Assembly: GCF_001425825.1 (NCBI RefSeq)
Contig: NZ_LMDM01000048.1
Span: forward strand, 1 to 64,000
Direction of reading: 5' to 3'
Source: Rhizobacter sp. Root1238
Lineage (GTDB): Bacteria > Pseudomonadota > Gammaproteobacteria > Burkholderiales > Burkholderiaceae_C
Length of the DNA stretch: 64,000 nucleotides
Part shown: in pieces, positions 37,197 through 56,970 of the stretch
Position numbering within the stretch: position 1 is the first letter of the stretch
Layout of the letters: every line of letters begins with the position of its first letter
The notes under the pieces: generated by a model
Database searches by the model: none
What the model was told of the DNA's origin: nothing
Seen by the model: the letters and a program-made list of their open reading frames with translations, nothing else
Translations under genes and position numbers: made by a program

Positions 37197-38306
37197 ATGA
37201 CGGATACATCTCAAGGCGGCTTTCTTCGCATCGAGGATGTGGTGAAGGATTTCGGCGGCGGTGCCGTCGCGGTCAACCACGTCAGCGTCGACATCGCGAA
37301 AGGCGAGATCTTCGCGCTGCTCGGCTCGTCGGGCTGCGGCAAGACGACGCTGCTGCGCATGCTCGCGGGCTTCGAGACGCCGACCTCGGGCCGCATCGTG
37401 CTCGACGGCAAGGACCTCGCCGGCCTGCCGCCGTACGCCCGGCCGCTGAACATGATGTTCCAGTCGTACGCGCTGTTCCCGCACCTGACGGTGTGGGACA
37501 ACATCGCGTTCGGCCTGCGGCGCGACCGGCTGCCGAAGGCCGAGATCGCCGAGCGGGTCGACGCGATGCTGAAGCTGGTGCAGCTGACGAAGTACGGCAA
37601 GCGCAAGCCGCACCAGCTGTCGGGCGGCCAGCAGCAGCGGGTGGCGCTGGCGCGCAGCCTGGCGAAGAAGCCGCAGCTGCTGCTGCTCGACGAACCGCTG
37701 GGCGCGCTCGACAAGAAGCTGCGCGAGGAAACGCAGATCGAGCTGGTGAACATCATCGAAGAGGTCGGCGTGACCTGCGTGATGGTGACGCACGACCAGG
37801 AAGAGGCGATGACGATGGCGTCGCGCATCGCGGTGATGAGCGAAGGCCGCTTCCTGCAGGTGGGCCCGCCGGCCGACATCTACGAGACGCCGGCGACGCG
37901 CTTCGTCGCCGACTTCATCGGCAACGTGAACCTGATGGACGGCGCGGTGACGGTGGACCAGCCCGACCACGTCGTGATCACCTGCCCCGACTGCACGCAC
38001 TACGTGGGCCACGGCATCACCGGCACCGAGGGCATGGAGGTGACGGTGGCGCTGCGGCCCGAGAAGATCCAGCTGTCGCGCAACCCACCGGAGGGTGAGC
38101 ACGGCCCGCACAACCGGGCCCGCGGCAAGGTGAAGAACCTGGCGTACTTCGGCAGCTTCACGGTCTTCCACATCCAGCTGCCGAGCGGCGCGATGCTGAA
38201 GGTGAGCCAGAACAACGCCGAGCGGCACCGCGACGACGTGCTCACCTGGGACGACGAGGTCTGGGCGCATTGGTCTCCCTCGGCTCACGTGGTGCTGACG
38301 CAATGA
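37197..38306 (+). CDS. potG: Polyamine ABC transporter ATP-binding protein
   Basis: A 369-residue ATPase of the PotA/PotG type. The Walker A motif GSSGCGKTT is at 43-51, the Q-loop at MMFQSYALFPH, the signature at LSGGQQQRVALAR, Walker B at LLLLDEPLGALD, and the H-loop at VMVTHDQEEA. A C-terminal TOBE domain (about 265-360) carries the regulatory part. It couples ATP hydrolysis to polyamine uptake with PotHI. It lies between two palindromic intergenic elements. The segment ITCPDCTHYVGHG in the C-terminal domain, with two cysteines, is somewhat unusual. Confidence 0.93.
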   Translation: MTDTSQGGFLRIEDVVKDFGGGAVAVNHVSVDIAKGEIFALLGSSGCGKTTLLRMLAGFETPTSGRIVLDGKDLAGLPPYARPLNMMFQSYALFPHLTVWDNIAFGLRRDRLPKAEIAERVDAMLKLVQLTKYGKRKPHQLSGGQQQRVALARSLAKKPQLLLLDEPLGALDKKLREETQIELVNIIEEVGVTCVMVTHDQEEAMTMASRIAVMSEGRFLQVGPPADIYETPATRFVADFIGNVNLMDGAVTVDQPDHVVITCPDCTHYVGHGITGTEGMEVTVALRPEKIQLSRNPPEGEHGPHNRARGKVKNLAYFGSFTVFHIQLPSGAMLKVSQNNAERHRDDVLTWDDEVWAHWSPSAHVVLTQ

Positions 38307-38730
38307 CAGCCCCCTCACGAACCGCTCGCCTTGCGCGCGGCCTTCGACAAGCTCAGTCCGAACGGGGTCTTGCTCGGCCCGAACGGGGTCTTGCTCGACC
38401 CGAACGGGATGGTCTTGCGCGCTGCGACGGCGTGGTACTTCGACGAACACAAGCGGTTCGCGGGCTGCGGCAGGGGGACTGGGCTGGGGGCGATTTCTGG
38501 GGCGACGAAGAAGATCGGCTCCGGGGTCGGCGCGCTTGCGCGCTTCGTGAGACTGACTCGCCGCGACTGTCTGACCACAGCGAACGAAGTGAGCGGAGGG
38601 AGTTTCGCGGCGCGACCCCGGAGCCGATCTTCTTCGTGAAGTCGGCCCGCCAGGGCCGACCGACCCGGCATGAGCCCCCAGCCCAGTCCCCCTGCCGCAG
38701 CCTGCGCGCACAGCAAGAAGGAGCAAACCC
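38307..38730. repeat. 424-bp gap with triple 21-bp repeat and nested inverted repeats
   Basis: No gene is supported here. The gap contains a 15-base arm of a dispersed repeat (38342-38356), then three tandem 21-base units built on CCGAACGGGGTCTTGCTCG (38358-38420, the third imperfect). A large palindromic structure follows, with an outer perfect 29-bp inverted repeat (38463-38491 with 38674-38702), an inner perfect 25-bp pair (38505-38529 with 38613-38637) and a central 8-bp pair (38559-38566 with 38605-38612). It interrupts the potG-potH operon and ends 28 bases before the potH start. Confidence 0.85.
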
Positions 38731-39648
38731 ATGAACGCTCCGACATGGTGGAGAGGAAGAAGCGCCGTCATCGGCATCCCGTACCTGTGGCTGCTGGTGT
38801 TCTTCCTGGCCCCGTTCCTGATCGTGCTGAAGTACAGCCTGTCGGAGATGGGCGCCGTGACGCCGAACGACATCACGAGCGTGGCCGACGGCGCGCTGAA
38901 GATCACGCTGAAGTTCGGCAACTATGTCTTCATGACCGGCGACGCGCTGTACTTCAAGGCATATGTCTCCAGCCTGAAGTTCGCGCTGATCACCACCGTG
39001 CTGTGCCTGCTGATCGGCTACCCGTTCGCCTACTTCATGGCCCGGGCGAAGCAGAGCCTGCAGCCCGCGCTGCTGATGCTCGTGATGCTGCCGTTCTGGA
39101 CCTCGTTCCTGCTGCGCGTCTATGCCTGGAAGGGCCTGCTCGAGGAAAACGGCTGGGTGCACCGCCTGATCGTCGGGCTGCACCTCGACACGCTGCTCGT
39201 GCAGGCGCAGATGATCGAGGTGCCCGGCAAGCTGATGAACACGCCCTTCTCGCTCGTGATCGGCATGACCTACACCTACCTGCCGTTCATGATCCTGCCG
39301 CTGTACGCCAACCTCGCGAAGATGGACCTGCGGCTGCTCGAGGCCGCGGCCGACCTCGGCGCGACGCCGTGGCAGGGGTTCTGGCGCATCACCGTGCCGC
39401 TCTCGAAGGCCGGCATCATCGCCGGCTCGATGCTGGTCTTCATTCCCTGCGTCGGCGAGTTCGTCACCCCCGAGCTGCTCGGCGGCCCGCAGACGCTGAT
39501 GATCGGCCGCGTGCTGTGGGACGAGTTCTTCAGCAACAACGACTGGACCATGGCGTCCACCGTCGCCGTCGTGCTGGTGCTGCTGATCGTGTTTCCGCTG
39601 GCGCTCTTCAACAAGTACCAGGTCGAAAGCCAGGAGCGCAGGCGATGA
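38731..39648 (+). CDS. potH: Polyamine ABC transporter permease (PotH type)
   Basis: A 305-residue inner-membrane permease with about six transmembrane helices. The first follows RSAVIGIPYLW, and others lie near 87-110, 120-140, 175-195, 225-245 and 270-295. The EAA loop LEAAADLGATPWQGFWRITV contacts the ATPase. Together with PotI it forms the membrane channel of the PotFGHI importer. The start follows AAGAAGGAGC in the palindromic gap. The stop overlaps the potI start (ATGA). Confidence 0.93.
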   Translation: MNAPTWWRGRSAVIGIPYLWLLVFFLAPFLIVLKYSLSEMGAVTPNDITSVADGALKITLKFGNYVFMTGDALYFKAYVSSLKFALITTVLCLLIGYPFAYFMARAKQSLQPALLMLVMLPFWTSFLLRVYAWKGLLEENGWVHRLIVGLHLDTLLVQAQMIEVPGKLMNTPFSLVIGMTYTYLPFMILPLYANLAKMDLRLLEAAADLGATPWQGFWRITVPLSKAGIIAGSMLVFIPCVGEFVTPELLGGPQTLMIGRVLWDEFFSNNDWTMASTVAVVLVLLIVFPLALFNKYQVESQERRR

Positions 39649-56882: not shown

Positions 56883-56894
56883 GTTCCGTCCGGG

Positions 56895-56946
56895 CTGAGC
56901 TTGTCGAAGCCCCGCTCGATGCGAGCAGGCCCTTCGACAGGCTCAG
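56895..56946. repeat. Dispersed palindromic repeat between convergent genes
   Basis: The arms CTGAGCTTGTCGAAG (56895-56909) and CTTCGACAGGCTCAG (56932-56946) pair with one mismatch around a second hairpin, GCTCG-ATG-CGAGC (56914-56926). It lies between the stop codons of the TonB receptor and yebC. The left arm recurs as its exact reverse complement at 38342-38356, and a related pair is inside the NRPS gene. It may act as a bidirectional terminator, but there is no T-tract. Confidence 0.75.
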
Positions 56947-56970
56947 GGCGAACGGGAGGCGCAGGCAGCC

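Follow-up and report, generated by a model that had tools for sequence, protein, structure and literature searches.

The described repeat nearest to the element presented here is the beta-proteobacterial repeat element (BRE; Hot et al. 2011, PMC3110155), a sequence of 75-91 bp at full length and about 69% GC, found in several copies per genome, mostly intergenic, in Comamonadaceae and other Betaproteobacteria. As the text of that paper presents it, BRE is tandem in places and variable between strains, its mover is not known, and ERIC, BOX, RUP and Correia/NEMIS are named as comparators (PMC3110155). The REP, BIME and REPIN sequences, with RAYT, are likewise dispersed intergenic palindromes that form inverted pairs, lie mostly behind genes and are non-autonomous. 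ERIC, BOX, RUP and Correia/NEMIS resemble the giant hairpin repeat of the present study in being intergenic, structured, non-autonomous and multi-copy; they have other sequences and hosts, and they differ from it in unit size and in the double-hairpin composite. With Rfam families the repeat has a conserved and covarying secondary structure in common, and it matched none of them above chance.

The window analysed here is the whole stretch of 64,000 nucleotides from Rhizobacter sp. Root1238 (contig NZ_LMDM01000048.1, positions 1 to 64,000). Within it, 424 bp separate the stop of a potG-like gene (38306) from the start of a potH-like gene (38731), as the earlier note had reported and as the ends of both open reading frames confirm. 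The gap and its two neighbours hold the following features, all on the plus strand:

37197 to 38306, plus strand: potG-like ABC transporter ATPase gene, upstream neighbour (open reading frame; Pfam ABC_tran and TOBE_2)
38343 to 38413, plus strand: REP-like unit TTCGACAAGCTCAG, continued by three tandem units of 21 bp in decay (genome count of the 14-mer TTCGACARGCTCAG)
38459 to 38706, plus strand: giant hairpin repeat, B half (homologues in its own and related genomes; match to model R1 at 38516-38625, 109 bits)
38459 to 38491, plus strand: outer stem, 5' arm
38505 to 38529, plus strand: inner stem, 5' arm (perfect 25 bp)
38530 to 38612, plus strand: conserved core (from 50 aligned cores and a count of their pairs), with the invariant motifs CTTCGT, ACTGACT and GnGAGTT in the window copy
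38530 to 38543: core hairpin
38559 to 38566 with 38605 to 38612: core helix
38580 to 38594: small core hairpin
38613 to 38637, plus strand: inner stem, 3' arm (perfect 25 bp)
38641 to 38660, plus strand: 3' side hairpin GTCGGCCC/GGGCCGAC, also in the other B copies of this genome
38674 to 38706, plus strand: outer stem, 3' arm
38731 to 39648, plus strand: potH-like permease gene, downstream neighbour (open reading frame; Pfam BPD_transp_1)

The nested palindrome is 248 bp long. Its outer arms of 33 nt match at 97% and enclose a perfect repeat of 29 bp (38463-38491/38674-38702), its inner arms of 25 bp match at 100%, and its centre holds a GCGCGC hairpin and two further helices, so that the perfect outer repeat, the perfect inner pair and the central pairing proposed in the earlier note are all borne out. 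The RNA folding that the note had suggested gave -268.8 kcal/mol for the gap region against -199 +/- 7 in shuffled sequences (z = -10), far beyond chance. An assembly artefact, a concern raised at the same time, is ruled out by homologous copies throughout the genome itself, in other members of the genus and in many named public genomes.

Searched with the gap DNA, the 6.5-Mb genome returned 99 matches, about 70 of them bearing the core and about 25 nearly full length at 79-92% identity (read by eye; all copy counts rest on sequence searches and are approximate). The palindrome is thus a dispersed repeat, and two other genomes of the genus (G005 and G008) gave 16-17 matches each. Many contigs of the draft genome begin or end in or near a copy (in G000, contigs C1, C4, C12, C14, C16, C23, C25 and C29 at their starts and C6 at its end); the repeat therefore seems to break assemblies, which would leave its copies undercounted. 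The usual unit is a composite of about 560-660 bp, in which hairpin A, reversed, is followed by a linker with at least one linking hairpin and by hairpin B in forward orientation. Aligned copies of this genome show A and B to be alike only in the core, at 38530-38607 in the window copy; their arms differ. A is present at 16 of the 21 loci read closely, and the window belongs to the five B-only copies: it holds a B half-copy of the composite, A being lost or lacking. In match lists of other genomes, read by hand, about 28 pairs of cores were arranged (-,+) and none (+,-), and an exact offset of 258 bp between paired cores is common to two genera. The locus is probably best explained as one copy of a dispersed, non-autonomous intergenic repeat, the unit of which is a divergent pair of giant nested hairpins and the B half of which stands in the window. 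Around the A-B composite of another genome of the genus (L049, in G002), long T/A-rich palindromes such as CCTACTTTCTTTGGCGAAGCAAAGAAAGTAGG were seen on either side (1110-1165 and 1645-1690), and similar ones occur in L179.

With a covariance model of the core (R1), the repeat was traced through sampled genomes. Of the 301 family members sampled, 137 carry it, and they represent 67 of 141 genera. The sample of 300 genomes from the order gave 10 with the core, confined to families f1, f10 and f20, and that of 274 from the class gave 3, of which two come from the same family as Rhizobacter and one is marginal. A DNA pattern covering a subset of cores retrieved 59 named stretches, all from Betaproteobacteria/Burkholderiales where named, among them Methylibium, Rhizobacter, Piscinibacter, Variovorax, Ramlibacter, Acidovorax, Ottowia, Hydrogenophaga, Pelomonas, Aquabacterium and others, and the core had no match in IMG/VR, PLSDB plasmids or GenBank phages. 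Rfam 15 at a relaxed threshold returned chance matches only (best score in the window 14 bits, against the 48 required), five further loci matched none of its families, and a literature search with the core and TTCGACA sequences found nothing. The earlier note had named no described element of this layout, and these searches agree, BRE being the nearest candidate by description. BRE and the core agree in taxa, length and GC, a likeness drawn from description since the BRE sequence lies outside the text of the paper (PMC3110155); the core may be BRE. That text speaks of tandem or single units of about 90 bp, without inverted A-B pairs, giant arms or covarying structure (PMC3110155), and the giant double-hairpin family has apparently not been described so far. 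This delimits a structured repeat that almost half of the family's sampled genomes carry, that is absent from Rfam and whose conserved folding is strongly backed. It offers many natural comparisons on the origin, upkeep and decay of long palindromes in bacteria.

The conserved structure was assessed on an alignment of fifty diverse cores of about 110 nt, in which CTTCGT, ACTGACT, TGTnTGA and GnGAGTT are invariant. Four helices pair in 87% of cells, with changes on both sides at 26 of 32 pairs, and the covariation score of 0.580 compares with 0.149 +/- 0.010 after shuffling, and slid pairings reach no more than 0.115; the structure being drawn from the same alignment, some bias towards it is expected, and the difference is large. 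A pseudoknot between ACTGACT and GnGAGTT, considered by hand, was dropped because it would leave no room for loops.

In the arms, pairing has been kept while the sequence changed, for the 26-nt outer arms of 16 B copies in this genome share 96% identity within a copy against 73% between copies, and the own partner arm is the best match, or tied for it, in all 16. Both selection on folding and template-switch correction predict such coupling, and the outer-arm mismatches (9 G-U, 7 other or indel) do not separate pairing at the RNA level from pairing at the DNA level; the near-perfection within copies would come from template-switch correction, from selection for pairing, or from both. Template switching is described as homogenising the arms of inverted repeats (PMC8604942), and together with the coupling within copies this could suggest ordinary long palindromes, subject to neither selection nor recognition, that template switching alone keeps perfect and that rare recombination has spread. 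Such palindromes would leave unexplained the invariant unpaired motifs, a four-helix core held across dozens of genera and the fixed A-B arrangement, and we consider them an unlikely account of the repeat.

Upstream of the palindrome, the three 21-base tandem units that the earlier note placed at 38358-38420 are real, and the same array reads in another register at 38351-38413, where copies 2 and 3 have 90% and 71% identity to copy 1 (Tandem Repeats Finder: 2.8 copies, 91% matches). The 14-mer TTCGACARGCTCAG occurs 246 times in the genome, against 0 for its reversed control, and the triplet is a decayed array of this second, separate, REP-like repeat family, which is much nearer to REP in size and number than the giant hairpin is. 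No described name for it was found in a literature search with the TTCGACA sequence. In the window copy, the array stands where hairpin A is found in full composites; a TTCGACA repeat followed by B is seen again at L018, and at L147 the B that follows it is truncated. The window has two further copies of TTCGACARGCTCAG, at 56886 and 56933, which form an inverted pair at 56886-56955, one minus and one plus, in a REPIN-like arrangement. Elsewhere in the window, a 98-bp unit is perfectly duplicated in tandem (1095-1290; two copies, 100% identical).

Comparison of orthologous sites revealed both empty and reduced states. Between potG and potH, the gap is 10 bp in G005 (PotH 98% identical), 223 bp in G008 (PotH 90%), where it holds TTCGACA repeats without the giant hairpin, and short in the remaining genomes of the genus; at this junction, none of the eight further genomes of the genus in which potH was matched has the giant hairpin. 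The flanks of 12 copies from the Rhizobacter genome were also searched in G005 and G008. Of these copies, L008 and L017 have no counterpart in either genome, L004 has none in G008 and L009 none in G005, and the empty gaps at L004, L008 and L017 measure from a few to about 20 bp. In the four comparisons of an empty with a filled site, the junctions proved ragged: both sides carry tens of bases that are not shared, and a target-site duplication was seen in none of the four. Gain by transposition is therefore a candidate reading, short of proof, and some of the differences could be losses. At L006, G008 retains the outer arms of both hairpins, A and B, but neither inner hairpin; at L020, G005 carries a remnant in which both ends of the composite are fused; and at L014, L020 and L025, G008 has TTCGACA arrays in place of the missing half or interior. 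Together, the empty and reduced sites indicate that composites are gained and eroded in modules, gain and loss not always being separable. Erosion of resident copies may proceed by polymerase slippage across the long palindromes, which would remove inner hairpins or whole halves, the remnant often being filled by the TTCGACARGCTCAG family.

The earlier note had suggested a MITE-like or REP-derived mobile element. Copies, empty sites and the composite sustain a repeat-derived and apparently mobile nature, and the sequence in the potG-potH gap looks like a mobile or once-mobile element that landed there; MITE and REP in the proper sense do not stand. For a MITE, the ends of the composite should form terminal inverted repeats, whereas they share the core only, and no target-site duplication was observed. 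No autonomous partner and no recurrent transposase was found among the open reading frames near 59 loci of the repeat (clusters judged by eye), the large clusters of which look like translations of the repeat or host genes; a partner may lie elsewhere in the genome.

Mobilization of a REP or REPIN by a REP-associated tyrosine transposase (RAYT) would agree with the location behind genes and with the inverted pair of palindromic intergenic units, as described for REPINs (PMC3116915), since A-B composites are always divergent, the window copy being without A. In size, however, the unit is several times a REP, given as 20-40 bp in PMC3733652 against a core of about 110 nt inside hairpins of about 250 bp. 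Nor does presence of the repeat follow Y1 transposases: a hand tally puts Y1_Tnp in 71% of the core-positive genomes (97 of 137) and in 74% overall (223 of 301), core-rich genomes such as G002, G113 and G126 are without it, and the sole Y1 match of the Rhizobacter genome is weak (25.5 bits) and sits between housekeeping-like genes at a locus without a core match. Movement by RAYT is accordingly improbable. For the dispersed double-hairpin repeat that we favour, we infer instead that the unit spreads, or did so in the past, through a factor encoded elsewhere, which would recognise the core folded as single-stranded DNA or as RNA, and the covariance model R1 provides a tool for seeking this missing enzyme.

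The gene context was examined with a crude codon-usage gene finder. Among the 64 copies with both neighbours resolved, 35 lie in co-directional, 26 in convergent and 3 in divergent gaps; the excess of convergent over divergent gaps has a binomial probability of about 1e-5, calculated by hand with equal neutral expectation and no gap-length correction. REPs are tolerated behind genes and kept out of promoters, and the bias seen here fits the same tolerance and exclusion.

The other proposal of the earlier note, an RNA element setting PotG:PotH ratios, would make the hairpin a dedicated cis-acting RNA working by attenuation, processing or 3'-end protection. Its operon-gap position and very strong fold are consistent with such a role, as is the A-to-B direction, which follows flanking transcription in 12 of the 13 co-directional gaps of this genome. 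Yet the eight same-genus genomes compared above do without the hairpin at this very junction, the same element lies beside unrelated genes at many loci, and the gap has no sigma-70-like promoter and no intrinsic terminator beyond chance; the single terminator-like site of the scan lies on the minus strand within potH and is no stronger than chance predicts. As a dedicated function, control of the PotG:PotH ratio is unsupported; a control RNA specific to this junction is unlikely, and the mechanisms listed for it we regard as highly improbable. As part of the dispersed-repeat explanation, the giant hairpin is in our judgement probably a passenger of the operon, and potH expression, if affected at all, would be affected only incidentally.

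Finally, the A and B hairpins could be the recognised ends of a new mobile unit, processed as folded single-stranded DNA or RNA by a putative enzyme, with mostly a short linker and sometimes passenger genes between them, a speculative proposal to which we attach a low probability. Four widely spaced A-B pairs (L178, L055, L179 and L180) do bracket one or two small genes, and passenger carriage by such pairs is a lead, not a result. At L178 (G570 C6:380500-382500), a toxin-antitoxin-like pair, RelE-like and HTH/MqsA-like with weak scores below curated cut-offs, lies between A and B at 625-1286. At L055 (G016 C6), inverted cores about 1 kb apart enclose an orphan open reading frame of 262 aa (1808-2596), which has no match in Pfam or NCBIfam. 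Orphan open reading frames also lie between the paired hairpins of L179 and L180, and Methylibium sp. NZG (L109) has the same bracketed arrangement as L055.
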